24,406 nucleotides of DNA, taken from positions 1 to 24,406 of IMG/VR virus record IMGVR_UViG_3300034198_005655. One strand, given 5' to 3'. Below, one piece after another: positions 7,594 to 22,804 of the stretch. The notes beneath the pieces are model-generated. The model searched no databases and was not told the DNA's origin. It worked only from the letters and a program-made list of their open reading frames with translations. The translations under genes and the position numbers were made by a program. The stretch is from a virus. The number at the start of each line of letters is the position of its first letter. Positions within the stretch are counted from its first letter, which is position 1.

Positions 7594-7601
7594 GAGCAAT
7601 G

Positions 7602-9710
7602 ATGAAATCAAAGGTATTGGACCGACCTTTATTTAAAGGCGACAAGTCCGGCATGTCGGAAGAAGAAGCCAGTAATGTTGGCATTATGGACGGCTTTATG
7701 GAAGCCGTGATGGCTGGCGAAATGGACGACAAAGAGGCAGAGGGCGAAGACTACGAAACTGAAAAGTTACTAGGCCGTAGGCCCGATTCCCCTGAAATTC
7801 TGATGAACAACCTCCGTGGTGACATGCGCTCAATAGATGCGCGGGTAGATGAACTCGCTGACATGGTAGGCATGAGAGCAGCACAAGACACACCTCAGGA
7901 GGTGTTAGCACTCCTGCAGCCCGTTCTAGCTGGACAAGCTGCACCACCAGCGATGCCTCCTGAAGCACAGGGTGGCATAGGTGGATTACCTATGGGAATG
8001 CCGCCTGCCCCTCCTGCTGCCGGTATAGGACCTGAGGTAGAACCCGGATCAGCGGTTTCAACGGTGCCACCTCCTATGGGAGACGAGGCACCTATGCCGC
8101 CGGAGGCGATGGGAGCAGAAGCTCCTATGCCACCAGAGGCTGCCGGTGGTATCGGATCGTTGCCCACGGGCCAAGAAGCACCTCCGCCAGTAGGTATGGC
8201 GCGTGGCGGGTATGTGCAACATTTTCAGGAAGGCGGAGACGCTGAACCTTTTATAGAGGGCTCCAATAGGGAGAATACAGAGCCCGACTATGGTGTTTAT
8301 TCTCCTGAGTTGATTGCACTCGCCGAACAGGAAGTAAGAAAACAGTTGGCTGAAAAGCCTGCGACTCCTCCTACTCTTAACCAAGCGATGTTGTCGCGTA
8401 TCCCACAGTACAAAGCTGTTCTGGGCGGCAGCAAGGATTTAACACAAGCGCAGATGCTGTTTGACATTGCGGGGGGCTTTTTAAATGTCGCTGCAGGCAC
8501 TGATGCAGAGGGTCGTCCAATACGTGGCGCTCCATCGTCTGCTATGCGTTTGGCAGCCGGTTTAAGAAACGTTCCAGCATTGGTTGGCGCACGTGCGGCT
8601 GAGTATCAAAAGTCGGACCGCGATGTCAAGATGATGGCAATGCAAGCAGGTGAGAAAGATATTGCTTTGGCCCGTGACTACAACTACAGGCTTATCGATG
8701 GTCAACGTAAACTATATACAGAAATACTTAAATCGAGTGCTAGGTCTAAGGACGCGGAAATTAAAGCTCGGGCCGCTTTTGAAAAAGACCCGTTTGGTAG
8801 TGGCCTTAAAGGTAAAGCATATGCTTTCCTCACTAAAAACGCGCCAGATTATGCAGCAGGTAAGTTAACTCCCGAAGGGGACAACAGATTTAGAAGCTCT
8901 TTGGCTATCGTCACTGAACCCAATTACATGATTAATCCACAAAACGGAGAGTTAATAGCATTACCCGTAAAAATCGCTCCATTTATAACAAACGCTGCTG
9001 CTCAACGAGAGAAGCTATCTAAAGTAACAAACAAAGATGGAAAAACGGTCATTAGCAACCCTATTCCTGTTGAAAGTACTACGACACCGGTTCCTGTTCA
9101 AAGTACTACGACGAGGCCTCCGGATACGCTATCCGCTGCTCCTGTTAGCGCTGCTCCTAAAAAAGATGGTGCGCCTGTAAAAAGGTCGACCACAATATAC
9201 GGTGCGGCTGATTTTGTAGCTGGGCCCGGAGCTTTTATTGCATCAAATATAGGGGAACGTATTCCGGGGATCGGCGGCAAGATAACTAAAGAAGGTGCTC
9301 AAGCCCGCAAAGTAGTTGCCACTGAGATGACCGACCTTGTTACAGTTTTGCAAAGTAGTCCAAAGCTGGCGGAAACGGAAAGAAAAGAGATTAAAAGCGA
9401 ATTAGAGATGACTAGCGTTGACTTTTTTAGTAGTCCGTCTACCTTTAAGAACAGGGTAATTGGTATAGAAGAGTACTTACAAAAAAGACTTATTGATGCG
9501 ATTAGGTCCTCTACGGCTAACGACGTTGATATGGCGGACAGGCACACTTATATGCGAATAGCTAATTCGATTAAAAACTTTCTTCCTAAGCTTGGGGTAC
9601 CTCCGCGAATTTATACGGAAGACGAGTTACAGAAACTTCCTGCCGGAAGTAAGTTTTTATGGCCTACTCCTAATGGCAAGGGGATGGAAGAGTATATCAA
9701 GGAAAACTAA
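7602..9710 (+). CDS. Pro/acidic-rich putative internal virion protein
   Basis: A 702-aa protein. Residues 1-110 are acidic and helical (MSEEEASNVGIMDGFMEAVM). Residues about 110-200 are a Pro/Met/Ala linker with EAPMPPEA repeats. Residues 199-213 carry the doubled Gly-Gly motif MARGGYVQHFQEGGD. The middle (about 280-400) is Ala/Arg-rich and helical. Another Thr/Pro linker (about 485-525) precedes a C-terminal helical region. No catalytic motif was found. AGGAG (7592-7596) is two bases from ATG 7599 but five from ATG 7602, so the second start is preferred. The stop overlaps the next gene (TAATG). A virion role is inferred from its place between two other low-complexity large proteins. Confidence 0.63.
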   Translation: MKSKVLDRPLFKGDKSGMSEEEASNVGIMDGFMEAVMAGEMDDKEAEGEDYETEKLLGRRPDSPEILMNNLRGDMRSIDARVDELADMVGMRAAQDTPQEVLALLQPVLAGQAAPPAMPPEAQGGIGGLPMGMPPAPPAAGIGPEVEPGSAVSTVPPPMGDEAPMPPEAMGAEAPMPPEAAGGIGSLPTGQEAPPPVGMARGGYVQHFQEGGDAEPFIEGSNRENTEPDYGVYSPELIALAEQEVRKQLAEKPATPPTLNQAMLSRIPQYKAVLGGSKDLTQAQMLFDIAGGFLNVAAGTDAEGRPIRGAPSSAMRLAAGLRNVPALVGARAAEYQKSDRDVKMMAMQAGEKDIALARDYNYRLIDGQRKLYTEILKSSARSKDAEIKARAAFEKDPFGSGLKGKAYAFLTKNAPDYAAGKLTPEGDNRFRSSLAIVTEPNYMINPQNGELIALPVKIAPFITNAAAQREKLSKVTNKDGKTVISNPIPVESTTTPVPVQSTTTRPPDTLSAAPVSAAPKKDGAPVKRSTTIYGAADFVAGPGAFIASNIGERIPGIGGKITKEGAQARKVVATEMTDLVTVLQSSPKLAETERKEIKSELEMTSVDFFSSPSTFKNRVIGIEEYLQKRLIDAIRSSTANDVDMADRHTYMRIANSIKNFLPKLGVPPRIYTEDELQKLPAGSKFLWPTPNGKGMEEYIKEN
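9064..9112 (+). repeat. 27-bp-period tandem repeat in Thr/Pro linker
   Basis: Two 22-bp copies (9064-9085 and 9091-9112) of TTCCTGTTSAAAGTACTACG+AC differ at one base and lie 27 bp, or nine codons, apart. They encode PVESTTT and PVQSTTT. A recent in-frame duplication in a flexible linker is the simplest explanation. Confidence 0.65.
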
Positions 9711-12700
9711 TGGCTAATGAAGACAATCAAAAGGCTATATATGCCCCTCCGAAAGGGGCAGTTAAATCAAGTACTACTGATGAAGTATTAGACGCAGTTA
9801 CGCTGGGCTTGTACGGGGCATTTACGGGTGAGGATAAAGTATCTCCCCCTAAAGGAGCAGTCCGATCCGAGCCTACAACATCGGAGACAGCGGCTGCCGT
9901 TGCTAGGGGTGCTACGAAAGGTCTTACCGAAAGTGCGCCTATTACCGGTGGCGTTATGTTGGGCTTAAAAGGGGCTAAGTACATTGCTCCCGCAGCAGGG
10001 CCTTATGCTCCATTAGTTACGGGAACCATGGCACTGGGTGGCGGAACAGCAGGCTACTTTTTGGGAGATAAGCTGTCGGATATGTTGCCCGAAAGGTTTA
10101 AGCAAGAGCCTGACCAAGAGTTATACCCATACTACTCAGGCGGAAGCACTTTCGGCCAAGCGATTGGCTATTCTCCTATGGCTTTTAATCTTCCGACTGC
10201 AATGGCAGGACGAATATCAAACGCAATTCGTCTGTCGGAGCCTGCTTTAGAGCAGTTTGGAATGAGAGCTGCGGGAAAGGCCGCTAAGTTTTTAACCGAC
10301 ACAGTTAAAGCGGTAGGTGAAAGTGCCATTAAATACCCTAAATCCTTTTTTACGGGAGAGGTAATAGGGGGCGCTGGAGCAGGAACTTTAGGGGGTGTTT
10401 CGGAATCCGAATATCCCGGACAACCCGGTCCTCGCTTGGCAGCAGAAGTAGTAGGCGGATTTTTTGCTCCGGGCCGGATGTTGATTAATAACGTAGGCAA
10501 TGCAAAATCAGTATTGACAGGCTTACTTGGATCATTCTCTAAAGAATCTAGAGAAGGACGTGCCGCGAACAAACTATATTCAATACTTACCGATTCTGGC
10601 GAAGACGTAGACAAAGTAATTAAGGCACTAGAAGCCAGTACTCCGGCAGGTATAAAGGCTACGGCAGGACAAAAGACAGGCGTTCGTTCTCTGTCTATCT
10701 TAGAAAATTCTCTTGCAAGAGATAGTGCTCGTTATGGCGCAGACATCACGGAACAAGGACAAAAAGCCATTCTTGCCTATGAAGGCTTGATTGAAAATCT
10801 TAAGAGAATTGGCACTCCTGAAGCGTTAAAACGTGCAGCACAAATGCGTGAGGACTATTACACGCAAATGATCCAAGGTCGCTTACATTCAGCCGAAATT
10901 AAATCAGCTGAAACCATCGCAAAGATTGGTAAGGACACGCCAGAAGCGCGTGAAAAAATTGGAACGCTTGTTTTTGACAATGTTTCTGATGCGCTGAAAG
11001 AAATACGTGGTCATGAAAAATGGTTGTGGAACCGTGCTTTAGTAGAGCTGAACAAAGTCAGTCCTAAAAAAGTAACTCGTACGGAGATGGTTCCTAATCC
11101 AAAGCTAGATGAGTTCAATAGATTTGAGTGGGAAGAGGCTGAACGTGCGAAAGGCGCGTCGTTTATGTCTGCACGTGCTTCTGCAAACAGGGAAGAGGCA
11201 CGTTTACGTCAATTCATCCCACAAAAAGTAACAGAGACTGTGTTTGCCGGTCGTCGAATAAGCGCAGACGAAACGGTTAAAACTTTTCTCCAGAGCTCGC
11301 TTGATATATCCAACGTGGTAGCTGCAGAAAATACCCCTGCTTTAGTCAAAAAAATTATGGCTGAACTGGGGGTCGATGCAGCAGCGATTACTAAGTATAA
11401 GAGTGGTCGTCTTACCCAAGAGTTTGCGGACAACCAAGTTGTTCCCGATAGGTATTTACCGCCTTTAAAGCAGGTTGATTTAAGCGAACTAGTCAACATG
11501 CGCTCCAACCTGTTGGAGTTGTCTCGTCAAGCGTCTATTAAAGGTGATCTGTCGGATGCTCGTCTGTATGGCACGATGGCAGAAGGCATGCTGAAAGATT
11601 TGGGTAAGATTAAATCAACATCGTTGGACGAAGCCCGACTATTTTCTAAAACACTTAACGATAGTTTTACACGAAGTTTTCCCGCAGAAATGCTGGCTAA
11701 AAAAGGAACTGGCGCGGCTGCAATGCCTCCAGAAACTTTAGTACAACAAGCGTTTGGGTCGTTTAATGATCTTACTTCTAAACGTATGCGGGAAATTGAA
11801 AGCGCAGTTGGGCTTTTACGTGGTAAATACAACGACGCAGTTACTAAGTTTGGTCCTCGTAGTAAACAAGCGCTTGAGCTAAAGCCTTTAGCAACTTTGG
11901 CTGATACCCGAGTTGTATCTATTCGTGATGCACATGATCGTATTTTACGTTTAGGTGCACTGAAGTCTATTGATGTACAAACTGGCCGAGTAGACCCTAG
12001 GAAACTACAAACATTTGTAAACGAAAATAAATCCATCTTAGATCAGATGAACATCACAGATGATCTAACGGATGCCGTTAAAGCAGAGAATTTATTCAAA
12101 GCAACACTGGACACTAATGGCGCTATCCAAAGAGGTTTGCGTAACCAAACTGCTTTTGCACAGGTACTGCGCTTTGAAAGTCCCTCCGCAGCTATTGCTG
12201 ATGCTTTAAATAGTAAATTTAAAGTTAGGAGTTTTTCTGGGATAGCTAAACTAGCTAAGTCAGGAGGACCAGAGGCGGTTGAGGGTTTAAAATCCAGCGT
12301 GTATGACTATGCTTTTTTAAAGGCAGGAGGAGATACCAACTTTAGTCCTACAGCCTTTAATAAAGCTATTTTTGAACCTCTTTCAGACAGACAGCCTTCC
12401 CTTTTTAATATTTTGCGCTCACAAGGCGTGATGAGTCTTCAAGAGGGTAAAAACCTAAAGCGTTTGATTGACCCCATGTTGAAAATTGAGCAGTCCATGG
12501 GAGACAGGAAATTGCTTGAAGGAGTGATACAAGGAGCAGACGCAGCCACTGAACTAGGTTTACGCGTAGTAGGTGCTAGGATGGGTACAATGATTTCTCG
12601 TGGTGAAAATCCCCTGATTGCGGGTCAAGCCGGTTCTGGCTTCATGCGAAATATGTTTAATAAGTCCCCCACGATCATGGTTCGAGGGATTATTGAAGAA

Positions 12701-13051
12701 GCGACAAAAGACCCCACAATGATGGCGCTCTTGCTTCGCAGAGGAAGAACGGAAAAAGAAAAGCTTTCCATCGCCCGTTCATTAAACACGTATTTAGGTG
12801 TTGCAGGACTCAACTACATGAAGTTTGAGGAACCTCCCGTACCGCCAGAAGAGCAGCGTGTAGATACTTCTGTAATGCGTCCCGCACAGCAAAGCGTGAC
12901 TCGTCGCCCACTGCCACCGACAGTACAGTCTCGCGGTGTACCCGGCTTTGGCACTAATGCTGCTTCCGCTGTTCCCGCCCCTCCACCTACTGGGGGCAAC
13001 AGTAGGGAAATGCTTCAGAAGCTGTTTCCTTACGACGCTACCTTGCGATAA
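9710..13051 (+). CDS. very large putative internal virion / DNA-ejection protein
   Basis: At 1113 aa this is the largest gene in the window. It starts with a duplicated APPKGAVKS / SPPKGAVRS segment. Gly/Ala-rich hydrophobic stretches follow (about 80-118, GVMLGLKGAKYIAPAAGPYA and VTGTMALGGGTAGYFLGDKL). Residues about 250-1000 are long, charged and helical. The last 60 residues are a Pro-rich disordered tail. Size, helical content and last position in the virion operon fit the large ejection protein of podoviruses (T7 gp16-like role). I see no lysozyme or transglycosylase Glu motif, so peptidoglycan activity is not supported. It starts in a TAATG overlap and is followed 8 bp later by the lysine-rich gene. 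Confidence 0.65.
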   Translation: MANEDNQKAIYAPPKGAVKSSTTDEVLDAVTLGLYGAFTGEDKVSPPKGAVRSEPTTSETAAAVARGATKGLTESAPITGGVMLGLKGAKYIAPAAGPYAPLVTGTMALGGGTAGYFLGDKLSDMLPERFKQEPDQELYPYYSGGSTFGQAIGYSPMAFNLPTAMAGRISNAIRLSEPALEQFGMRAAGKAAKFLTDTVKAVGESAIKYPKSFFTGEVIGGAGAGTLGGVSESEYPGQPGPRLAAEVVGGFFAPGRMLINNVGNAKSVLTGLLGSFSKESREGRAANKLYSILTDSGEDVDKVIKALEASTPAGIKATAGQKTGVRSLSILENSLARDSARYGADITEQGQKAILAYEGLIENLKRIGTPEALKRAAQMREDYYTQMIQGRLHSAEIKSAETIAKIGKDTPEAREKIGTLVFDNVSDALKEIRGHEKWLWNRALVELNKVSPKKVTRTEMVPNPKLDEFNRFEWEEAERAKGASFMSARASANREEARLRQFIPQKVTETVFAGRRISADETVKTFLQSSLDISNVVAAENTPALVKKIMAELGVDAAAITKYKSGRLTQEFADNQVVPDRYLPPLKQVDLSELVNMRSNLLELSRQASIKGDLSDARLYGTMAEGMLKDLGKIKSTSLDEARLFSKTLNDSFTRSFPAEMLAKKGTGAAAMPPETLVQQAFGSFNDLTSKRMREIESAVGLLRGKYNDAVTKFGPRSKQALELKPLATLADTRVVSIRDAHDRILRLGALKSIDVQTGRVDPRKLQTFVNENKSILDQMNITDDLTDAVKAENLFKATLDTNGAIQRGLRNQTAFAQVLRFESPSAAIADALNSKFKVRSFSGIAKLAKSGGPEAVEGLKSSVYDYAFLKAGGDTNFSPTAFNKAIFEPLSDRQPSLFNILRSQGVMSLQEGKNLKRLIDPMLKIEQSMGDRKLLEGVIQGADAATELGLRVVGARMGTMISRGENPLIAGQAGSGFMRNMFNKSPTIMVRGIIEEATKDPTMMALLLRRGRTEKEKLSIARSLNTYLGVAGLNYMKFEEPPVPPEEQRVDTSVMRPAQQSVTRRPLPPTVQSRGVPGFGTNAASAVPAPPPTGGNSREMLQKLFPYDATLR

Positions 13052-13059
13052 GGAATTTT

Positions 13060-13752
13060 ATGGCAACCAAAACAACAAGATCAAAGACACCCGTTAGGAA
13101 AACTCGAAAGTTTGGGGGAGGAGGTTCTGTGATGGATACTCCTTCTCGAGATATGCGTGATCCTGCTTATAGAAAAAAGCTAGAAAAAGAACAAGCACTA
13201 GAAACCTCTACCGATGATCTTGAGCTTGCATTAGGGGTGGGGGCGGTAAGAAAGGGAATTGGATTCCTAGTTAAAGACTTCAAAAACAGTATACAAAGAG
13301 CACCTAGTCGTTCTATTACAAAAGGCATACAGATAGGCTCTAAAACGCCTGAGGCCATATATAAAAAGGAATACGATAGGCTGCGCCAAATGGCCGACGA
13401 TGCCTTGGCACAGGGACGTAAAGTGTCTGAAAAAGAAGTTAAAGAGAAGGCAGACTACTGGACAAAGTATGAATTGAAAAAGATCAAAGACAATAAGCTA
13501 CCTCCAAGAAAAGATTTAATAAAAGAAGAGGTAAAAGATAAAGCTTTAAAAGCTGCGGAACGTGCGCTCTACGCTACTTCGTTTGAGAATGCTCCTAAAG
13601 TATTAAGATCGTTTCAAGATAAAGAAGAGAAGCCCGCTGCCCTGAAAAAAGGAGGAGCGGTAAAAAAGTCTACTAAGTCCAAGGTCAACAAACAGCTTGT
13701 CAAGCAACCAAAACGCATTGCCGCGAAGACTGCTAGGCTTCGGAAGTCTTAG
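13060..13752 (+). CDS. lysine-rich basic protein, unknown function
   Basis: A 230-aa, very basic protein. The N-terminus (KTPVRKTRKFGGGGSVMD) and C-terminus (AALKKGGAVKKSTKSKVNKQ, then KRIAAKTARLRKS) are disordered and Lys/Arg-rich. The centre (about 95-180) is a long charged helix. Gly-Gly motifs occur near both ends, as in the virion proteins upstream. AAGGA at 13050-13054 sits five bases before the ATG. It may be a DNA-associated virion protein packaged with the genome, or a small scaffold; I do not recognise the family. Its last 20 bp overlap the tail of the convergent nuclease gene. Confidence 0.6.
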   Translation: MATKTTRSKTPVRKTRKFGGGGSVMDTPSRDMRDPAYRKKLEKEQALETSTDDLELALGVGAVRKGIGFLVKDFKNSIQRAPSRSITKGIQIGSKTPEAIYKKEYDRLRQMADDALAQGRKVSEKEVKEKADYWTKYELKKIKDNKLPPRKDLIKEEVKDKALKAAERALYATSFENAPKVLRSFQDKEEKPAALKKGGAVKKSTKSKVNKQLVKQPKRIAAKTARLRKS

Positions 13753-13754
13753 TC
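13728..13754. terminator. hairpin at convergent gene ends
   Basis: AGGCTT-CGG-AAGTCT (13735-13749) forms a 6-bp stem with one G-T wobble. It is flanked by GACT (13728-13731) and AGTC (13751-13754), which extend it past a small internal loop. It contains the stop codons of both converging genes. There is no clear T-run on either side, so it would be a weak bidirectional terminator at best. Confidence 0.3.
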
Positions 13755-14425
13755 AAGAACTTCTCTACCCTCTCCATCCATTCTTTCTTATAGCGCTCGA
13801 ATTCATGACCAGCGGTTGTGAATTCTTGCGTTGTCCCATCCTGTACCGACACTAGTACCACGCCGTAATTAATGTTCGTCCCATGCACAATATCGTGTGC
13901 CATGGCATACGCGGCTAACTGGTGAAAGTAGTCCCCAATCCACTCATGCCGCTTAGGCTTGATGCTTTGTTTGAAGTCAACAATCGCCTCTTTCCCTCTG
14001 TAGACAGCGACTAAATCGGTAGTACCTGCGTACTTGTCTGGGTAGTACACGGGGACTTCTGACCCCCATATCTCATCGATGTTGGGAAAGAACTTGTTAA
14101 TGAGCCTGTGCCCCATCTCGTAGCCCCGCATCTGCAGCCAATCCTCTGCCACAGGCAACGGCTCACCCGCGATGAAGGACTCCATCACCTGATGCATGGC
14201 GGTTCCTACGTGCGCAGCGTCTCGCTTTATGCGCTCCGCTTCCTCTGCACCAATCCTCGCGGCCCACGCATCAAGGCTTGCGTTATCCTTGGTAGCGGAC
14301 AGGATGGTCGTCACACTGGGCATATGCCCATTTTTCTCGCTTTTGTATACACGTCCCGTGGATGTATCCACTCTTTCCATTTTTTGGTACACATAGGGGC
14401 TGGATACTTTGATTAGATTAGCCAT
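13733..14425 (-). CDS. RecB-like PD-(D/E)XK exonuclease
   Basis: A 230-aa protein with the ordered motifs of the RecB/lambda-exonuclease branch of PD-(D/E)XK nucleases. These are GTAMH with H78, E123 (GSEVPVYY), D137 in GTTDLVAVY, the D150-x-K152 pair in AIVDFKQS, and Q169-x3-Y173 in YFHQLAAYA. The family is metal-dependent and degrades or trims DNA ends. In phages it commonly serves end resection, recombination or host-DNA recycling. The ATG lies inside the end of the SNF2 helicase gene (13-bp overlap), and the GGAGAGGAG just upstream can serve as its ribosome binding site, so the two are co-translated. Confidence in the fold is high; the exact polarity and substrate are unknown. Confidence 0.87.
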   Translation of the reverse strand: MANLIKVSSPYVYQKMERVDTSTGRVYKSEKNGHMPSVTTILSATKDNASLDAWAARIGAEEAERIKRDAAHVGTAMHQVMESFIAGEPLPVAEDWLQMRGYEMGHRLINKFFPNIDEIWGSEVPVYYPDKYAGTTDLVAVYRGKEAIVDFKQSIKPKRHEWIGDYFHQLAAYAMAHDIVHGTNINYGVVLVSVQDGTTQEFTTAGHEFERYKKEWMERVEKFLTKTSEA

Positions 14426-15864
14426 GCCTTTAGCTCCTCTCCCATGACTTGGTTGGCAATATTGATTTTGTCTCGCAATGCTTTGACGATCTTTTCGTCC
14501 ACGGTTTTGGGGCAGATCAAATCGACGTAGGTCACGTTTTTAGTCTGCCCGATACGGTGAGCGCGGTCTTCAGATTGCAGGCGCTTCTCTAAGTCAAACG
14601 AGTTGCTGTAGTACACCACGATGCTGGCAGCCGTTAGCGTCAAGCCGTACCCGCCTGTGCTGGGGTTGCCCACAAAGAAGCGCATTGCGCTATCCGGATT
14701 CTGAAACTCTGACACTACGCGCTGGCGTTCATCCCCAGACGTGTCCCCGTAGTAAGTGCCCACTGCGCTCATACCGTAGGCTTCCTGTAGCGCCAGCTTG
14801 ATTGCTTCGATGTCATGGCGGTAGTTTGCCCAGATGATCATCTTGCCGTCCGACTCTTCCGTCACATTCAAGAGTTCTTTAATACGATTGTTCGGAAGGT
14901 GGAGCACGGTGCCATCATCAAGCTTCACGTGCCCACAGACGATCTGGTGCAGGCGCATAATTTGAGTCAGTGCGTTGACCGTGGACACCAGCCCTTCGCT
15001 AAACTGGGCAAGCGCCATCAACCGCATCTCGTTGTATGCCTTTACCTGTTCTTCAGTAAGATCAACCTCACGCTTAACGTACAGCTTCTCTGGTAGGTCT
15101 AAGCACTCTTCTTTGGTCACCCTGAAAGAGAACTTATCCAGCTTCTCCTTTAGCTCGTCCAAATGCCTAAAGCCCAGTATCTGCTTAAAGCTATGTGTCG
15201 CTAACTGCCGTTCCTGAAGGACCGCGTACCGCGCTTGGAACGTGTAATAGCTGGCATGCCCTAAGCAGTTAGGGGACAGAAACGCACATTGCTGATACAA
15301 ATCCATAGGACTCTTCGTGACAGGAGAGCCGGTCATGATGCGTCGATAGTGAGCTTCCTTACCTACCTTCAGTGCGTTCTTTGCACGTGCCGCTGATGGC
15401 GTTTTAATCGTCGTAGATTCATCAATTGCCATGAATCCGTTATGGCAGAGTAAGTACCTACTAGCAAACTTCACGCCTTTTTCTGTGGACAGTGCTTCAA
15501 TATTCATGACTAATATCTTTAAGTCTTCGCTTACTGTAAACAATTTATCTAACGCTTCTTTTTCTGCTTTCTTGGGAGTAGGTGACCACAGTGCCATTTG
15601 ATACACCACATGCGCAGGCATGTGTTTGGGTATCTCTGTATCCATCCAATTTCTATATACACCCTTGGGTGCAATGATTAATGCTGCATTAATTTCGCCG
15701 CGATCATACAACATGGCTATATTATTAATTAGCATAAAGCTCTTACCGGTCCCCATCTCCGAAAAGATAGCGGCCACTCGCTTCTCCCAAAAGCGCATTA
15801 AATAAGCCTGTTGATGTACAAAAGGTTTATTTTTATAAGGGTATGTTTCTAAAAATTTATCCAT
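14413..15864 (-). CDS. SNF2-family (SF2) DNA helicase/translocase
   Basis: A 483-aa protein with SWI2/SNF2 helicase motifs in order: motif I EMGTGKSFML (K41), motif II MAIDEST (148-151), motif III TGSPVTK (178-184), motif V GGYGLTLTAAS (404-414) and motif VI QSEDRAHRIGQ (430-440). It is a compact ATPase core without accessory domains. The family translocates on duplex DNA without necessarily unwinding it. In phages it is thought to help recombination, fork restart or protein removal. The start at 15864 (MDKFLETYPYKNK) was chosen over an in-frame ATG at 15900, because the residues between look non-conserved and AGAAAGAAAG precedes it. It is transcribed divergently from the replication genes and overlaps the nuclease at its 3' end. 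Confidence 0.88.
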   Translation of the reverse strand: MDKFLETYPYKNKPFVHQQAYLMRFWEKRVAAIFSEMGTGKSFMLINNIAMLYDRGEINAALIIAPKGVYRNWMDTEIPKHMPAHVVYQMALWSPTPKKAEKEALDKLFTVSEDLKILVMNIEALSTEKGVKFASRYLLCHNGFMAIDESTTIKTPSAARAKNALKVGKEAHYRRIMTGSPVTKSPMDLYQQCAFLSPNCLGHASYYTFQARYAVLQERQLATHSFKQILGFRHLDELKEKLDKFSFRVTKEECLDLPEKLYVKREVDLTEEQVKAYNEMRLMALAQFSEGLVSTVNALTQIMRLHQIVCGHVKLDDGTVLHLPNNRIKELLNVTEESDGKMIIWANYRHDIEAIKLALQEAYGMSAVGTYYGDTSGDERQRVVSEFQNPDSAMRFFVGNPSTGGYGLTLTAASIVVYYSNSFDLEKRLQSEDRAHRIGQTKNVTYVDLICPKTVDEKIVKALRDKINIANQVMGEELKAWLI

Positions 15865-15887
15865 AGCATTCTTTCTTTCTAAAGGGG

Positions 15888-15917
15888 TTGCAATTCCCAC
15901 GAAACTGAGTGTACACT
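15888..15917 (+). promoter_or_regulatory. promoter for replication operon
   Basis: TTGCAA (15888-15893) and TACACT (15912-15917) are spaced 18 bp apart, each matching the sigma70 consensus at 4 of 6 positions. Transcription would start near 15924, just ahead of AAAGGAG (15934-15940) and the GTG start at 15948. The -10 lies within the palindrome AGTGTACACT. Confidence 0.45.
15908..15917. promoter_or_regulatory. perfect 10-bp palindrome AGTGTACACT in divergent gap
   Basis: AGTGTACACT is its own reverse complement, so it presents TACACT as a -10-like hexamer on both strands. It sits between the divergent helicase and replication operons. On the - strand a TTTCTA (15931-15936) lies 17 bp upstream of that hexamer. 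It may be a bidirectional promoter core or a dimeric operator. Confidence 0.45.
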
Positions 15918-15947
15918 AATCGCTCGTACCTAGAAAGGAGAAATGAA

Positions 15948-16298
15948 GTGCCTAAAGTCTTTGTCGTCTCTGAAACAAGTCAACACAACATTGCAAGTGC
16001 AATGGACTTTGGAGACATTGAAACGATCTTGCCACCTAATGCGCAAGTGGCCTTCTCTGTTGCACCCACTGTCAAACGAGCTTATCGCGTATTAGATAAG
16101 TTTTGTGATGATGATTATCTATTGTTCATAGGTGATCCAACTGCTATGGCAATCGTATCTGCTGTAGCAGCAGAAAAAAATAACGGACGATTTAAATGTT
16201 TAAAGTGGGACAAATTTGAACGTCGTTATATCCCGATCCAAGTTGATCTACACCCCAAGAAAGGAGAAATGGCAAATGAGTTTGACGAATATATTTGA
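15948..16298 (+). CDS. conserved phage protein of unknown function
   Basis: A 116-aa protein (MPKVFVVSETSQHNIASAMD) with a well-ordered alpha/beta pattern and a conserved-looking core, DDYLLFIGDPTAMAIVSAVA then GRFKCLKWDKFERRYIPI. I recall near-identical 'GDPTAIAIASAVAA' proteins at the head of replication modules of uncultured phages, always without a function. The GTG start at 15948 is chosen because AAAGGAG lies seven bases upstream. An in-frame GTG at 15909 has no such signal, and an ATG at 15943 is in another frame. As first gene of the replication operon it is likely early. Its end overlaps the next gene by 23 bp. Confidence 0.72.
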   Translation: MPKVFVVSETSQHNIASAMDFGDIETILPPNAQVAFSVAPTVKRAYRVLDKFCDDDYLLFIGDPTAMAIVSAVAAEKNNGRFKCLKWDKFERRYIPIQVDLHPKKGEMANEFDEYI

Positions 16299-16830
16299 GC
16301 AGGATGCCGATGCCCTGCAGGTAAAGGATACTGATTTAGTAGGTATCGCTTTGATGGCAAAACGTGCAAAGCAACTCGAGAAAGAACTCGAGGATCAAGA
16401 AACAGTTGTAAAAGAAAAGAAAGAGCAGTACCGAAAACTAATCGAGGAAGCGATTCCTGAAGCGTTAGCGGGTTTAGGTATGAAGTCGTTCAAGATGGAA
16501 GATGGTTCGTCCATTGAAGTCAAATCTTTTTACTCTGCATCAATCTCTGAAGCACGTAGAGCAGAAGCGTTTGAATGGCTGCGAAACAATAACTTCGGTG
16601 ACTTGATCAAGAACACCGTATCAGTTCGCTTCGGACGCGGCGAAGAACAGTTATGTCAGCGCGCTATGGAGATGCTTACATCAAGTGGCTTTCCTGTAGA
16701 GCAAGCTGAAAAGGTTGAACCTATGACGTTAAAAGCATGGGTCAAAGAACGAGTGGAAAAAGGGTCCGAGTTTCCCTCTGAGTTGTTCGGTGTTTATATC
16801 GGCCAAAAAGCGACAATTAAATCAGTCTAA
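16276..16830 (+). CDS. coiled-coil replication-module protein, unknown function
   Basis: A 184-aa protein. Residues about 25-60 form a charged coiled coil (KRAKQLEKELEDQETVVKEK). A compact domain follows with GLGMKSFKMEDGSSIEVKSF, WLRNNNFGDLIKNTVSVRFG and a closing LFGVYIGQKATIKSV. The layout, coiled coil plus small beta-containing domain, occurs in phage replication/recombination accessory proteins (it resembles Gp157-type proteins in outline only; I cannot claim homology). The ATG at 16276 has AAGGAG nine bases upstream. In-frame codons back to 16216 exist but overlap the gene upstream. It lies between two conserved early genes, so a role in DNA metabolism is likely but unproven. Confidence 0.68.
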   Translation: MSLTNIFEQDADALQVKDTDLVGIALMAKRAKQLEKELEDQETVVKEKKEQYRKLIEEAIPEALAGLGMKSFKMEDGSSIEVKSFYSASISEARRAEAFEWLRNNNFGDLIKNTVSVRFGRGEEQLCQRAMEMLTSSGFPVEQAEKVEPMTLKAWVKERVEKGSEFPSELFGVYIGQKATIKSV

Positions 16831-16851
16831 TTTATTCAAGGAGCAAGAACC

Positions 16852-17622
16852 ATGGCAAAAGGAACAGCAGTGGCAGAAGCCACAACAGGTAACGCATTAG
16901 TACTCATGAGCAGTTTTGAAGAGGATGCGCAGTCCGGCTTTGATGGCATGAATCAGGAAGACTTTGCGCTTCCGTTTCTAAAGCTACTAACCAATACCTC
17001 ACCAGAGATTGGCGATGTAGAAGGTGCAGTGCCGGGTATGATCTATAACAGCGTTACAGGGACTCTCTTCGATGGTAAGAAGGGTATTCTGGTAGTTCCC
17101 TGTGCATACGTCAGGCAGTATATTGAATGGGCACCGCGTGGCAGCGGCTCTGGCGCACCTATAGCGATTTACCCCAGTACTAGCGACATCCTCTCCAAAA
17201 CTCATCGTGAGCCCGGAGAGAATCGGGATTACCTCGACAACGGTAATTACATCGAGAACACTGCCAATCACTATGTGATGGTGTTGGACGATAACGGTGT
17301 ACCTTCGCCCGCATTGATCGTGCTGAAATCCACGCAACTGAAGAAGTCGCGTAAGTGGAACAGTATGATGATGTCTATAAAAATGCCGGGCAAGAATGGT
17401 TTATTCACGCCTCCGATGTACTCACAAATCTATCGTTTGACTACTGTTAAAGAGTCGAACGACAAGGGCCAGTGGTTTGGTTGGGAAGTGGGTCACGTCA
17501 GTGCGATTGAAGATGCCAGTGTGTTTCAAGGAGCAAAAACTTTTGCCACGTCTGTATCGTCAGGCGATGTAAAGGTGAAGCATTCGGATGAAGAGGCTAC
17601 CTCTCCTTCTGCAGTGTTTTAA
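16852..17622 (+). CDS. candidate ssDNA-binding / replication accessory protein
   Basis: A 256-aa protein with an acidic N-terminus (SFEEDAQSGFDGMNQEDFAL), then a beta-rich domain: PFLKLLTNTSPEIGDVEGAV, IYNSVTGTLFDGKKGILVVP, YVRQYIEWAPRGSG and TQLKKSRKWNSMMMSIKMPG. Aromatic and basic residues on predicted strands and a Ser/Asp/Glu-rich C-terminus (HSDEEATSPSAVF) are what one expects of a phage ssDNA-binding protein, but the classical OB pattern is not clear. Similar proteins occur next to phage primase/polymerase genes in uncultured phages. AAGGAG at 16838-16843 with 8-bp spacing fixes the start. An intrinsic terminator follows directly, so it may be made in higher amounts than the genes downstream, consistent with a stoichiometric DNA binder. 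Function is inferred. Confidence 0.6.
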   Translation: MAKGTAVAEATTGNALVLMSSFEEDAQSGFDGMNQEDFALPFLKLLTNTSPEIGDVEGAVPGMIYNSVTGTLFDGKKGILVVPCAYVRQYIEWAPRGSGSGAPIAIYPSTSDILSKTHREPGENRDYLDNGNYIENTANHYVMVLDDNGVPSPALIVLKSTQLKKSRKWNSMMMSIKMPGKNGLFTPPMYSQIYRLTTVKESNDKGQWFGWEVGHVSAIEDASVFQGAKTFATSVSSGDVKVKHSDEEATSPSAVF

Positions 17623-17628
17623 TTGTGT

Positions 17629-17662
17629 GGGCCTGAAACCGTAAGGGAGTAGGGCCCTTTTT
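17629..17662 (+). terminator. intrinsic terminator inside replication operon
   Basis: GGGCC (17629-17633) pairs with GGCCC (17653-17657), followed directly by TTTTT (17658-17662). Within the loop CC-GTAA-GG can form a small GNRA-capped helix. It lies in the 56-bp gap between the candidate ssDNA-binding gene and the primase gene and would attenuate transcription into primase, helicase and polymerase. Confidence 0.65.
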
Positions 17663-17678
17663 GCCTGAGAAAGCAGAA

Positions 17679-19211
17679 ATGACTGACATCACCAAATTCA
17701 AATCGATTTTTGAGGGATTGGATATTGCTTATGGCACCTACAAAATCGAGAGGGCTAAGGACAGTGGCAAGCAGGCGGGAAAGGCTGTTGTCGTTCGTAA
17801 ACCACCAACTGACGATTTGTGGGTTGATCACTTGGAAGGTGTTGAGCCTTCCCTTGGCATTATTCCTATTCGCGCTGATAACCACTGCATATGGGGTTGT
17901 ATTGATATCGATCAGTACCCTCTGGATCATGCGGGCCTTATTGCGAAAGTTCGTAGGTTAAATCTTCCCTTAGTTGTGTGCCGCAGTAAATCAGGTGGCG
18001 CTCATATATTTTTATTTGTTAAGACCCCTATTCCTGCTGCTGAGATGCAGAGGTTTTTAAACACCTGTGCGAGTTTACTTGGAGAAGCTGGTCGTGAAAT
18101 TTTCCCGAAACAAACTGAAATCCTTGTTGAGCGCGGTGACACAGGCAACTTCCTTAACCTTCCGTATTTCGGGGGTGAAGAAACCATGCGTTACGCGATT
18201 AATGACGATGGAACAGCTTCCTCGCTTGATGAGTTCTATGCTCTCTACGACAAGTATGCCCAAGACGTGCCGCTTGTTCATCCGGAAGAGGCGAAAAAAG
18301 AAGCCGATACTCCAGCAAAGGACGGCCCCCCTTGTCTACAGGCATTGTGTGGTCAGGGATTTCCGGAAGGCACTCGCAACAACGGCTTATTTAACATCGG
18401 CATCTATTTAAAGAAGGCCGCCCCGGGTGAGTGGGAAAACAAACTCATGGAATACAACATGAAGTACTTTGGGCCGCCATTGCCGCTCAATGAACTTCAG
18501 ATCATCACTAAGCAGTTGAACAAAAAAGATTACAAGTACAAGTGCAAAGACGCACCATTAAACAGCTTCTGCAATTCAGGCTTGTGTAGAACACGCAAGC
18601 ATGGTGTAGGTGCGGACGGTCCTGACGCACCACAAATATCAAGCCTATCAAAATACAACTCTGAGCCACCGTTGTGGTTCTTGGACGTAAACGGCAAACG
18701 CATTGAGCTAGACACTGATCAACTGTTTAACCAGCCGCAGTTCCAAAAGTCCTGTGTTGAACGCTTGAATGTTCTGCCGCCTACACTGCGCAGACAAGAT
18801 TGGGAAAGCTTCTTAAACAGTTTGCTGCGTGAGATGGTAGAGCTTGAGCAAATACAAGATGCACCTGAAGACACCAGCTACACAGGTCGCTTCACTGACT
18901 TGCTAGAAGAGTTTACTACTCACTTGCAACAAGCGATGGACCGCGAAGAGATTCTCATGGGCCGCCCGTGGACGAATGAAGAAGATGCGATGGTGTACTT
19001 TCGCATCAAAGATTTAGAAGCACATTTAAAGCGCAGTAGTTTTACTAGTATGTCTGCACCTCGCATGGCCCAGAAACTTCGTGACATAGGTGGTGAGCCT
19101 ATTAGCTTATTTCTAAAAGGCCGTTCCGTACGCACTTGGCGGGTCCCACGTTTCGCGCGCCAAGAGTCACCCTTTGAAACGCCTGAACACAGAAAAGGAG
19201 CATTCTTCTAA
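17679..19211 (+). CDS. archaeo-eukaryotic-type primase (TOTE/PrimPol-like)
   Basis: A 510-aa protein. Residues about 1-200 match an AEP catalytic domain. The metal-binding D-x-D is CIDIDQYP (D76, D78), the second motif is SGGAHIFLF (H109), and a third conserved block is NLPYFGGEETMRY (160-172). Residues about 218-310 resemble a primase C-terminal (PriCT) helical domain, CLQALCGQGFPEGTRNNGLF. Cysteines at 289, 298 and 303, plus 219 or 224, could hold zinc or an Fe-S cluster. The C-terminal 200 residues are unassigned. It should prime, and may extend, DNA at the fork. The ATG at 17679 is preferred to an in-frame TTG at 17661, which lies in the terminator T-run. It overlaps the following gene by TAATG. 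Confidence 0.82.
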   Translation: MTDITKFKSIFEGLDIAYGTYKIERAKDSGKQAGKAVVVRKPPTDDLWVDHLEGVEPSLGIIPIRADNHCIWGCIDIDQYPLDHAGLIAKVRRLNLPLVVCRSKSGGAHIFLFVKTPIPAAEMQRFLNTCASLLGEAGREIFPKQTEILVERGDTGNFLNLPYFGGEETMRYAINDDGTASSLDEFYALYDKYAQDVPLVHPEEAKKEADTPAKDGPPCLQALCGQGFPEGTRNNGLFNIGIYLKKAAPGEWENKLMEYNMKYFGPPLPLNELQIITKQLNKKDYKYKCKDAPLNSFCNSGLCRTRKHGVGADGPDAPQISSLSKYNSEPPLWFLDVNGKRIELDTDQLFNQPQFQKSCVERLNVLPPTLRRQDWESFLNSLLREMVELEQIQDAPEDTSYTGRFTDLLEEFTTHLQQAMDREEILMGRPWTNEEDAMVYFRIKDLEAHLKRSSFTSMSAPRMAQKLRDIGGEPISLFLKGRSVRTWRVPRFARQESPFETPEHRKGAFF

Positions 19212-19453
19212 TGGACATTCTCGAACTACCAAAATTTAAAGATGCCGAACTAGGTATCTGCACTACGTGGCATGGCAAAGAACTTGTAGAACGTATTGTC
19301 TACGATGCTATAGCTATGGTTCATATTCTTGTTAAGCAAGAAGGCATGAGCGAAGAAGAGGCGGCTGAGTATATTGAACGTGAGTTTGTGTTTAAGTTTG
19401 CAGGGGACACACAGCCCATCATTCTTTGGTCCTCAGATGAACCCCGTACATAA
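19211..19453 (+). CDS. small acidic protein between primase and helicase
   Basis: An 80-aa protein (MDILELPKFKDAELGICTTW) with a central helix pair and the stretch GMSEEEAAEYIEREFVFKFA. No known motif. AAGGAG (19195-19200) lies ten bases before the ATG, which overlaps the primase stop (TAATG), and its own end overlaps the SF1 helicase start by 17 bp. Such tight coupling between two replisome genes suggests it is a partner or loader for one of them. That is inference from position only. Confidence 0.65.
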   Translation: MDILELPKFKDAELGICTTWHGKELVERIVYDAIAMVHILVKQEGMSEEEAAEYIEREFVFKFAGDTQPIILWSSDEPRT

Positions 19454-20939
19454 AGTATTCGGCCCCCCGGGGTCTGGCAAGACTACCTATCTTCTTGGTT
19501 TAGCGGAGAGCAAACTAGAAGAGGGAGTCGCTGCCAACAGTATTGGATACTTTGCGTTTACACGAAAGGCCGCATCAGAGGCCAAGGACCGTGCGATAAA
19601 GAAGTTCCCTCATTTAAAAGGGGAGATAGATTTTCCATGGTTTAGAACGTTGCACAGTCTAGCTTATCGCTGCTTAGGTCTGTCTGGTAAAGATGTAATG
19701 AAGCCAGAGCATTACAGAGAGTTTGCGCGAGAAGTTGGGTTAGACATGAGCATAGATACAGGAGAAGAAGATTTTGTTATTAGAACAGATAACCCCATCC
19801 TTAACGAGATCAATATCGCGCGTGTCCGTGGGACAGACCTCAAGACTCATTACAATTGTAGTGCGCTTAAAATCGAGTGGCACCATTTTGAGTATGTCGA
19901 ACGTGCTTACAGAAACTACAAAGAATCCAAGAATCTGCTGGATTTTACTGACATGCTCGAACACGTCGTTAGAGAGCCTGAATATCTGCCTCGATTGGGA
20001 GTCCTCATTATCGACGAAGCACAAGACCTATCGCAGCTACAGTGGCAATTGGTCTTTGAGCTTATTAGAAGAGCGGATCAGACGTACATTGCCGGAGACG
20101 ACGATCAAGCCGTGTATGTATGGGCCGGTGCTGACGTGCAAACCTTCCTTGGTATCGAGGGTGAAATCAAAATTCTTGAAAAGTCTTACCGCGTTCCTGC
20201 GTTAATCCATAGCCTTGCTAACCGTGTAGTAAATCGAATTCGCACACGACAAGATAAAACATGGAGTCCGCGTGAAGAAGTCGGTGTACTAAAAACGTAC
20301 GACCGATTTGAGAGCGTTGATCTTACTACCGGTGAGTGGCTTGTTCTTGCTTCAACGAATTACATGCTGAATGATTTGCATGAATGGATCAAGTCTCAAG
20401 GACTATTGTTCGAGCGCTACGGACAACGGAGCGTCTCAGAAAAAACGTTGATCGCTGTTATGGGCTGGGAGACGCTGCGCAAGGGTAACGAAATAGATTC
20501 GCAAACAGTAGAGATTGTTTACCGACACTTAGGCACTGAGTTTGTTAAGCGGGGACACAAGTCGCTTAAAACATTGAACCCAGAAAAGCTTTACACCATC
20601 GAGATGCTTGAAGCAGATCACGGACTACTTACTCGCGCTATCTGGCACGAGGTGCTGACAAAGATTAGCGAGAACCAACGTAGCTACATTATTTCTTTGC
20701 TTCGTCGTGGCGTGAAGCTCACGGGGGACGTTCCCATTCGACTCTCCACGATCCACGGAGCAAAAGGCGGGGAGGCGGACAACGTCTTACTGATCACGGA
20801 CCTCTCGCCTAAGTTCGCTAACGAGTATGCAAAGAACTCTGACGACATTAATCGTCTGCTGTATGTCGGCATTACTCGCGCCAGACAATCGCTGCACATC
20901 ATCCTTCCTAAAAACGAACAAAAAGGATTTAGATTTTGA
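19437..20939 (+). CDS. UvrD/Rep-type SF1 DNA helicase
   Basis: A 500-aa superfamily 1A helicase with all core motifs: Walker A GPPGSGKTT (9-17), Ia GYFAFTRKAA (37-46), II IIDEAQD (191-197), III IAGDDDQAVYVWAGA (218-232), IV EKSYRVP (248-254), V RLSTIHGAKGGE (435-446) and VI YVGITRARQ (476-484). It is shorter than bacterial UvrD (about 720 aa), with reduced 1B/2B insertions, closer to phage Dda-like helicases. It would unwind DNA with 3'-5' (UvrD-like) polarity at the fork or during recombination; polarity is inferred from the family. The ATG at 19437 starts just before the Walker A motif. No ribosome binding site is seen, so translation is probably coupled to the overlapping small gene. Confidence 0.9.
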   Translation: MNPVHKVFGPPGSGKTTYLLGLAESKLEEGVAANSIGYFAFTRKAASEAKDRAIKKFPHLKGEIDFPWFRTLHSLAYRCLGLSGKDVMKPEHYREFAREVGLDMSIDTGEEDFVIRTDNPILNEINIARVRGTDLKTHYNCSALKIEWHHFEYVERAYRNYKESKNLLDFTDMLEHVVREPEYLPRLGVLIIDEAQDLSQLQWQLVFELIRRADQTYIAGDDDQAVYVWAGADVQTFLGIEGEIKILEKSYRVPALIHSLANRVVNRIRTRQDKTWSPREEVGVLKTYDRFESVDLTTGEWLVLASTNYMLNDLHEWIKSQGLLFERYGQRSVSEKTLIAVMGWETLRKGNEIDSQTVEIVYRHLGTEFVKRGHKSLKTLNPEKLYTIEMLEADHGLLTRAIWHEVLTKISENQRSYIISLLRRGVKLTGDVPIRLSTIHGAKGGEADNVLLITDLSPKFANEYAKNSDDINRLLYVGITRARQSLHIILPKNEQKGFRF

Positions 20940-22804
20940 ACAAGACAATGCCGTTGTTTCCTACCCAGACGGAGTGGGTTCCGCCGTCTTCGTTTCCTGA
21001 CTTATCTTCCGCGAAGGAGATTGCAATTGACCTCGAAACCTGTGATCCGAACATGGAAAGTATGGGGCCGGGTTGGCCTCGCAATGATGGTTATATTGTT
21101 GGTTATGCAGTGGCCGTCGATGGTTGGGCCGGTTATTTTCCTATTGCTCATGCTGGCGGCGGTAACCTCGATAAGCGTCTTGTTGAGCGCTGGATACAGC
21201 GAGTATTGGAATTACCCGCTGACAAGGTCATGCATAACGCCGCGTATGACCTTGGATGGCTTAGAGTTAGCGGGTTCACTGTCAACGGACGAATTATTGA
21301 CACAATGTTGGCAGCGCCCTTGCTCGATGAAAACCGTTTCTCATACAGCCTCAATGCGCTTGGCTTCGACTACCTTAAAGAGACAAAATCAGAGCAAGGT
21401 CTTAAAGAAGCAGCTGGGGACTTTGGCGTTCATGCAAAGAAAGAACTCTGGAAGCTTCCGGCCCTCTATGTGGGCGCATACGCCGAACAAGATGCCGCCC
21501 TTACGCTCAAGCTCTGGCAATGTTTCAAACCTCTACTTATTAAAGACGAAGTCTCGTCCATCTTTACGCTGGAGTCAGAGCTACTTCCCGTCTTGGTATC
21601 TCTTACCCTCAAAGGAATACGCTTCGACAGAGATAAAGCTAAACGTGTTATCTCCGACTACCGAAAGAAAGAAATAAGCCTCATCAAAGACATTCGCAGT
21701 ATGTGCGACAGTCCTGTGGATATCTGGGCGGCGGCGTCTATTGCCTTGGGGTTTGACAACCTAAAGGTTCCCTATCCAAAGACCACTACGGGCCTGCCAA
21801 GCTTTACCAAGTCCTTCCTTGACTCCTGTGATCACCCAGTGGCAAAGATGATCGTGGAAGCACGTGAGATCAACAAAACACACGGAACGTTCTTGTCTCC
21901 CTACCTAGACTTCTCTGCTAGGGATGGGCGCATTCACCCACACGTGAACCAGCTACGCTCTGACGATGGTGGGACGGTCACAGGACGGCTCTCCATGGCT
22001 AACCCAAACCTGCAGCAAGTACCTGCCCGCCACGAAATCATCGGCCCGCTGGTGCGCTCTCTCTTCCTTCCCGAAGAAGGGGACATGTGGGCCGCATGTG
22101 ACTTCAGTTCTCAAGAACCACGGCTCCTGATCCACTACGCCAATCTTCTCGAGTTATCGGGCGCGGACAAGATTGTGGGCGCGTACAACAGCAACCCAGA
22201 CACAGACTTCCATCAGATGGTGGCCGACATGGCAGGAATTGGCCGCAAGCAAGCCAAGACCATCGGCCTAGGACTGATGTACGGCATGGGAAAGGGCAAA
22301 CTAGCTGGTCAGCTGGACATTTCAATAGAAGAAGCCTCTGAGCTTATGTCCCTCTTCCACCAAAAGGTGCCGTTCCTGCGCGGAACAGTGGACGCCGTCA
22401 TGAAGCGCATTGAGCATCCCGCCAGCGGTGGTGCCATTAGGACGCTATTGGGGCGCAAATGTCGCTTCCCGCTCTGGGAGCCGATGGAATGGGGCGTAAA
22501 CAAGGCGCTGCCGTTCGAGCAAGCGCGCATTGAATACGGCCCAAGGATCAAGCGGGCATGGACGTACAAGGGCTTGAACCGTCTGATACAGGGTTCTGCA
22601 GCAGATCAGACCAAAGCTGCCATGGTGGCGTTGTCCAAGGCTGGGTTTAACCTCCTCTTGCAGGTGCACGACGAGATTGCACTGTCGGTCAAGAACAAAG
22701 AAGAGGCGCTGGCCGCTGCTGAAGTCATGCAAAACGCTGTCAGATTAGAGGTTCCCAGCCGTGTAGATGTGGGTTTAGGCCAATCGTGGGGCGAAGCTGC
22801 ATAA
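20936..22804 (+). CDS. polA: family A DNA polymerase with 3'-5' exonuclease
   Basis: A 622-aa T7-like DNA polymerase. The proofreading exonuclease has Exo I IDLET (D32, E34), Exo II HNAAYD (D105) and Exo III YAEQD (Y182, D186). The polymerase domain has motif A CDFSSQEPR (D389), the O-helix RKQAKTIGLGLMYG (R437, K441, Y449) and motif C QVHDE (D579, E580). The residue aligned with E. coli Phe762 is Leu445. There is no 5'-3' exonuclease domain, as in T7. The TTG start at 20936 sits eight bases after AAAGGA and overlaps the helicase stop; ATG 20948 is the alternative and would remove four residues. The 3' half looks richer in G+C than the late genes. It replicates the phage genome with the upstream primase and helicase. 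Confidence 0.93.
   Translation: MNKTMPLFPTQTEWVPPSSFPDLSSAKEIAIDLETCDPNMESMGPGWPRNDGYIVGYAVAVDGWAGYFPIAHAGGGNLDKRLVERWIQRVLELPADKVMHNAAYDLGWLRVSGFTVNGRIIDTMLAAPLLDENRFSYSLNALGFDYLKETKSEQGLKEAAGDFGVHAKKELWKLPALYVGAYAEQDAALTLKLWQCFKPLLIKDEVSSIFTLESELLPVLVSLTLKGIRFDRDKAKRVISDYRKKEISLIKDIRSMCDSPVDIWAAASIALGFDNLKVPYPKTTTGLPSFTKSFLDSCDHPVAKMIVEAREINKTHGTFLSPYLDFSARDGRIHPHVNQLRSDDGGTVTGRLSMANPNLQQVPARHEIIGPLVRSLFLPEEGDMWAACDFSSQEPRLLIHYANLLELSGADKIVGAYNSNPDTDFHQMVADMAGIGRKQAKTIGLGLMYGMGKGKLAGQLDISIEEASELMSLFHQKVPFLRGTVDAVMKRIEHPASGGAIRTLLGRKCRFPLWEPMEWGVNKALPFEQARIEYGPRIKRAWTYKGLNRLIQGSAADQTKAAMVALSKAGFNLLLQVHDEIALSVKNKEEALAAAEVMQNAVRLEVPSRVDVGLGQSWGEAA

Follow-up and report, generated by a model that had tools for sequence, protein, structure and literature searches.

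Related Replication Genes in Published Phages

Phages encode AEP primases almost as frequently as DnaG-like primases, according to a published survey (PMC5862659), so that the premise of an earlier sequence-only reading of the DNA analyzed here, namely that such enzymes are foreign to phages, is not borne out. The set of replication genes described below is itself already known, being present in the published genomes of R5C (PMC5454422), Pan1 (PMC9837993), HTVC023P, DSL-LC04 and SH-Ab 15497. PolA, a helicase and the primase have served as conserved markers for pelagiphages of the HTVC023P type (PMC9599517). For the PolA protein of SH-Ab 15497, polymerase activity with a preference for Z has been reported (PMC8599892). 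DSL-LC04 (OR003939, Dishui Lake; proposed 'Dishuiviridae') has been annotated, and the passages seen of its description contain no replication mechanism (PMC10611076). In keyword passages from the literature on carrier phages, no discussion of a missing ring helicase or of a shared tail was found. These two features, a tail common to the primase and the gp34-like protein and a proposed ring-free fork, are what the present analysis adds to the literature covered.

The Replication Cassette of the Window

The window, i.e., the whole stretch of DNA that was analyzed, is an entire virus record of 24.4 kb. Its right half holds a replication cassette, and the genes to the left of it are mostly virion genes. 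The cassette is made up as follows:

13733..14425, minus strand: PD-(D/E)XK exonuclease (PF12705, 4.9e-05; phrog_298 exonuclease, 5.5e-54)
14413..15900, minus strand: SNF2-type SF2 helicase, the second conserved motor of the cassette (PF00176, 1.3e-22; phrog_62 DNA helicase, 4.8e-122)
15909..16298, plus strand: Pam3 gp32-like protein (PF23992, 1.6e-25)
16216..16830, plus strand: Pam3 gp33-like protein, belonging with SNF2 and gp34 to a transferable unit (PF23984, 1.2e-34)
16852..17622, plus strand: Pam3 gp34-like protein, putatively an OB protein resembling SSBs, with a C-terminal tail proposed for docking (PF23977, 3.8e-63)
17679..19211, plus strand: AEP primase of 510 aa, starting at ATG 17679 (AEP-TOTE PF22548, 3.4e-13; phrog_21866 'primase', 1.4e-96)
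19211..19453, plus strand: 80-aa ORF (phrog_13182, 1.5e-10)
19437..20939, plus strand: UvrD/PcrA-like SF1 helicase, proposed fork helicase (UvrD-helicase PF00580, 1.6e-30)
20948..22804, plus strand: family A DNA polymerase (PolA) with a 3'-5' exonuclease domain (PF00476, 9.9e-57; PF01612, 1.3e-08)

The coordinates and profile matches agree with the sequence-only reading that an AEP primase, an 80-aa ORF, a UvrD-type SF1 helicase and a family A polymerase lie in one operon. The stretch that it delimited, 16852-22804, does end with PolA, but it begins at the start of gp34 and not at that of the primase. Similarly, its list of primase, SF1 helicase and PolA was correct as far as it went, but left out the SNF2, exonuclease and gp32/33/34-like genes at 13733-17622. 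In the adjoining virion block, two large ORFs of 703 and 1113 aa (7599-9710 and 9710-13051) have no PHROG match; the DSL-LC04 gene in the matching place, next to its exonuclease, is annotated as a DNA transfer protein.

Distribution and Conservation of the Cassette

Matches to the primase were found in 25 GenBank phages and in at least 599 stretches of virus contigs, with one weak match only among plasmids. By megablast, DSL-LC04, a circular genome of 61.5 kb with identical gene order, is the single related phage record. The order primase-SF1-PolA is kept in all 160 loci that have the three genes; as the loci were collected by means of the primase, its own universality is no evidence. Among 80 close virus-contig relatives, SF1 and PolA are present in all 42 that cover 5 kb downstream, and gp34, gp33 and SNF2 in all 30 that cover 4.5 kb upstream. 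No terminase or capsid similarity was detectable between DSL-LC04 and the carriers DMU1 and ct3Et533, implying that the cassette either passes from one virion type to another or far predates their divergence.

The 80-aa ORF behaves differently from the genes around it. The sequence-only reading had cast its product as a coupler between primase and helicase. It is absent from 129 of the 160 loci, however, and lies after SF1 in three others and after PolA in one, which rules it out as a linker.

The SNF2-gp33-gp34 unit has a distribution of its own, as it is common to phiVC8, Carpasinavirus XcP1 and Pbunavirus KPP12, but not to T7. In phiVC8 it is found with PolA and an AEP-SF3 fusion as the primase, while XcP1 and KPP12 have DNA polymerase III alpha, which indicates that the unit combines with different primases and polymerases. 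Across these loci of the unit (L239:16902-20265, L240:15321-18583 and L238:29253-32118), the polymerases are unrelated.

A Proposed Fork Without a Ring Helicase

We lean, with some reserve, towards a reading in which these genes form the core of a tailed phage's replication machinery. Primers would come from the AEP primase and be extended by the family A polymerase, and unwinding would be carried out by non-ring motors, with no DnaB/gp4, SF3 or MCM ring. The motor at the fork would most likely be the UvrD-like SF1 helicase, partnered by the SNF2-type SF2 helicase, while the gp34-like protein would coat single-stranded DNA. Finally, the C-terminal tails of the primase and gp34, with their acidic residues and a terminal Phe, usually as -PF, would occupy the same pocket on another replisome protein and thereby tie priming to the rest of the replisome, much as the T7 tails do.

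The sequence-only reading had noted the lack of a TOPRIM/DnaB-type primase-helicase. Indeed, DnaB_C has no match in the 24.4-kb window. Nevertheless, the record is probably an incomplete contig, a fragment of a virus genome, given that its relatives measure 42-78 kb, so that this absence alone proves little. The search for a DnaB- or gp4-like gene elsewhere in the genome was therefore made in relatives, in 26 other carriers, of which 12 are phages whose genomes were deposited as complete and 14 are long virus contigs. None of them has a match over the family cut-off to DnaB_C, Toprim_2, DUF5906 (SF3), MCM or AAA_25, while the positive controls were detected in T7 (DnaB, TOPRIM and AAA_25) and phiVC8 (SF3). 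Sub-threshold P-loop matches of ~11-17 bits do occur in the carriers, several of them on the SF1 gene itself.

UvrD passes its cut-off in 25 of the 26 carriers, the contig of the 26th ending right after the primase, and it is absent from T7 and phiVC8. Conversely, on bacterial contigs several relatives of the AEP carry a fused helicase of SF3 type (DUF5906) or RecA type (AAA_25) and have no SF1 gene nearby, so that an unfused primase with a separate SF1 helicase looks like the alternative arrangement. In addition, ct52p938, a distantly related AEP carrier whose module is a different one, has a DnaB-like gene, and no SF1, PolA or gp34 profile match was obtained in the 20 kb examined. SF1 is proposed to take over the task of the ring mainly because its carriers are without a ring and carriers of ring genes or fused AEPs are without SF1, a complementary pattern that rests on few independent ring-bearing comparisons. 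Four loci (L206, L208, L209 and L218) have a stand-alone AEP gene and no SF1 in the stretch examined. L208 and L209 have SNF2, gp32 and gp33 downstream as in DMU1, and their SF1 gene may lie past the contig end; the contigs of L206 and L218 are bacterial and lack the cassette altogether.

The SF1 protein has intact Walker A and B and SF1 motifs and both UvrD N- and C-terminal domains, and it matches solved DNA helicase II structures (1.5e-18). Its start is likely ATG 19437, as the upstream TTG 19374 only adds a stretch that is missing from the DSL-LC04 gene. The motifs of the SNF2 protein are intact as well. In L017:11639-14077, the SF1 ORF is 812 aa long, in comparison with the usual ~500, and it shows in its middle an intein splicing domain (PF14890, 2.2e-06) below the curated cut-off; from its sequence, the cassette helicase of L017 likely carries an intein. 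Nanhaivirus Pan1 and R5C (L007, L008) also carry a second UvrD-type helicase.

Enzymes of the UvrD and SNF2 families are mostly repair, recombination or accessory motors. The host DnaB ring might be recruited as the fork helicase, with the phage supplying primers and polymerase, and with SF1 and SNF2 serving as recombination or repair motors. The absence of a phage ring helicase from the 26 carriers would be equally expected if the host ring were used, and the exonuclease of the window cassette would fit recombination. On the other hand, the SF1 gene is as conserved as that of the polymerase and always sits between it and the primase gene. Moreover, phiVC8 keeps SNF2, gp33, gp34 and PolA and has a primase with an SF3-type domain and no SF1, suggesting that SF1 takes the place of a fork helicase of the phage's own. 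Recruitment of the host ring is considered unlikely, though it is the most serious of the alternatives.

Another division of labor, in which the SNF2-type helicase has the main role at the fork and SF1 an accessory one, appears quite improbable. The SNF2-gp33-gp34 unit is admittedly the more widely kept, and DnaB was not found in phiVC8 (PolA and SF3), KPP12 or XcP1 (both polymerase III alpha), which all have it. Yet it is SF1 and not SNF2 that tracks the absence of a ring among the tested genomes, with SNF2 and SF3 occurring together in phiVC8, and proteins of the SNF2 family usually translocate along dsDNA rather than separate its strands.

The Primase

Judged by its sequence, the product of 17679-19211 is a primase of the AEP superfamily, AEP-TOTE/CAPP-like, with intact DxD and SxH-type His motifs and predicted primer-synthesis activity. 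The motifs reported by the sequence-only reading are in place, DID at 76-78 and GGAH at 106-109, numbered from ATG 17679, and the phrog_21866 match spans nearly the full length of the protein. Across 53 sequences there is no variation at residues D76, D78, K104, S105, H109 and E140, the last of which would, from its position, be the third catalytic acid. The solved structure nearest to the AEP domain is that of CAPP in a primer-initiation complex (profile E=5e-16; Foldseek 1.9e-11); a PDB search with the single primase sequence gave no match, whereas the profile search matched CAPP. The link to the TOTE conflict system consists of the Pfam domain name only; the gene is surrounded by a phage replication cassette.

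The AlphaFold2 model of the primase, from 53 sequences, has a mean pLDDT of 87.3 and a pTM of 0.68; the folded alignments of this study comprise the window and contig-derived sequences only. It consists of an AEP domain (~1-206), helices (218-282), a Cys cluster (C289, C298 and C303), a C-terminal domain (~320-490) and a tail ending in F. The C-terminal part had been described as unassigned. This is no longer so for residues ~218-282, which are PriCT-1-like in 38 of the 53 family members with weak to moderate scores, nor for the Cys cluster that follows them, but it does hold for the last domain, for which the whole-model Foldseek search returned no convincing PDB match. An ATPase motor within the primase itself was considered and discarded, as no Walker A motif is present in 202 of the 205 module primases.

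That the AEP protein is a repair or restart PrimPol, with normal priming by host DnaG or transcripts, is improbable: some AEP enzymes do act in repair, and host DnaG could serve a phage that has no TOPRIM primase, but the strict linkage of the AEP gene to SF1 and PolA is in keeping with a role in replication, as is the occurrence of related AEPs fused to ring-type helicases.

The Polymerase

The polymerase belongs to family A, as the sequence-only reading had it, and its motifs are intact (DFSSQEPR, RKQAKTIGLGLMYG, VHDE and IDLET). The description 'T7-sized' was loose, given lengths of 618-622 aa versus 704 for T7 gp5. In the alignment of the two proteins, 7 residues of the 618-aa PolA stand opposite a 76-residue stretch of T7 gp5, which we take from its position to be the thioredoxin-binding insert. 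The same short stretch is found in DpoZ of phiVC8 and in five other carriers. The proposal that a T7-like ancestor swapped its priming-unwinding unit is contradicted by this polymerase without the thioredoxin-binding insert and by the sharing of SNF2, gp33 and gp34 with phiVC8, Carpasinavirus and Pbunavirus.

The gp34-Like Protein and the Shared Tail

The AlphaFold2 model of gp34 has a mean pLDDT of 86.7. Its best PDB matches in Foldseek, all weak, are bacterial SSBs, the best one being SsbA (E=0.023) and none falling below 0.001, and one annotated phage SSB was found in BFVD (5.8e-4). The protein probably coats single-stranded DNA; against such a role, DMU1, a carrier, and phiVC8, a partial relative, also encode another predicted SSB.

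Many members of the gp34 family end like the tail of bacterial SSBs, e.g., in DDIPF, with a mean net acidity of +3.0 over the last 20 residues, and the ending of the primase is of the same kind. A terminal F is present in 45 of 65 non-redundant primases and 50 of 69 non-redundant gp34 proteins, while elsewhere in the cassette it occurs in 2/87 SF1, 0/47 PolA, 0/55 SNF2 and 0/76 gp33 proteins. Conservation is limited to the last two residues, at which pairwise identity is 0.53/0.37 for the primase and 0.54/0.45 for gp34, versus ~0.06-0.2 further in, where the tail drifts. The endings vary in some lineages; for example, the primases of R5C and Pan1 end in -EA. Within a genome, the tails of the two proteins agree in 46 of 62 pairs, with 32.1 expected, a value reached in 0 of 20,000 phylogeny-free shuffles. 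However, a tree-aware test of independent pairs was not significant, its power being low with ~10 changes per tail on the tree, and covariation of the tails was accordingly not retained as support.

In T7, gp2.5 and gp4 both end in DF, and the acidic tail of gp4 is known to bind the T7 polymerase (PMC12593628). Together with the tail common to the primase and gp34, these features led to the proposal of a shared docking pocket. By analogy, a common partner might receive both the primase and the gp34 tail in a single pocket, and this docking is proposed as the coupler that the sequence-only reading had looked for in the C-terminus of the primase and the 80-aa protein. A stronger version remains tentative and, on balance, rather doubtful: that a large phage group replicates its DNA ring-free by means of SF1 and SNF2, and that the SSB-like peptide of the primase and the SSB of the phage compete for the same pocket, in convergence with T7 gp4 and gp2.5.

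If the ring-free reading is true, whether a dsDNA phage can run a full fork on non-ring helicases could be tested in culturable phages, namely DMU1 on Acinetobacter and R5C on Dinoroseobacter, and the tail shared by primase and SSB-like protein would make the link between an AEP primase and a family A polymerase accessible through just two residues. As some Z-DNA phages and abundant marine pelagiphages have this cassette at the core of their replication, the mechanism would apply widely.

Comparison with Known Systems

The closest system, DSL-LC04, has the same genes in the same order, i.e., exonuclease, SNF2, gp32/33/34, primase, small ORF, SF1 and PolA. Its primase is 79-80% identical to that of the window, and sequence divergence is the only difference. 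The HTVC023P-type pelagiphages, Dinoroseobacter phage R5C and Pseudanabaena phage Pan1 (Nanhaivirus) share the AEP primase, SF1, PolA, gp33 and gp34 with the window, and SNF2 is seen in R5C, Pan1 and HTVC027P-like contigs. They differ from it in having no homologue of the 80-aa ORF; R5C and Pan1 have primases without the -PF ending and add annotated homologues of DNA polymerase III gamma/tau and epsilon, as well as beta in Pan1.

The Z-DNA phages SH-Ab 15497, DMU1 and their relatives have the AEP primase, SNF2, gp32/33/34, SF1 and PolA as in the window. In contrast, they carry a PurZ-like adenylosuccinate synthetase, and their SNF2 gene follows that of the primase on the same strand. No PurZ-like gene was found in DSL-LC04 or other close relatives of the window, the phage of which, from this gene content, is probably not a Z-DNA phage. 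Cassette carriers that do have an adenylosuccinate synthetase-like gene (L003, L005, L011, L012, L013, L098 and L099, the last two being virus contigs) are likely Z-DNA phages, judging from these PurZ candidates. phiVC8 shares SNF2, the gp33-like and gp34-like proteins and PolA with the window, but its primase combines Prim-Pol, PriCT_2 and DUF5906, an SF3-type helicase domain, and it has no SF1.

T7 resembles the window in its family A polymerase and in the acidic tail with terminal Phe at the end of both its primase-helicase and its SSB. It differs by the TOPRIM-DnaB ring of gp4 and the thioredoxin-binding insert of its polymerase, neither of which is seen here. Finally, the CAPP protein of Marinitoga (7nqd, 7nqf and 7p9j) is alike by profile and fold in its AEP domain, the only part that is shared; its setting in Marinitoga is CRISPR-associated, whereas the primase of the window sits in a phage replication cassette.
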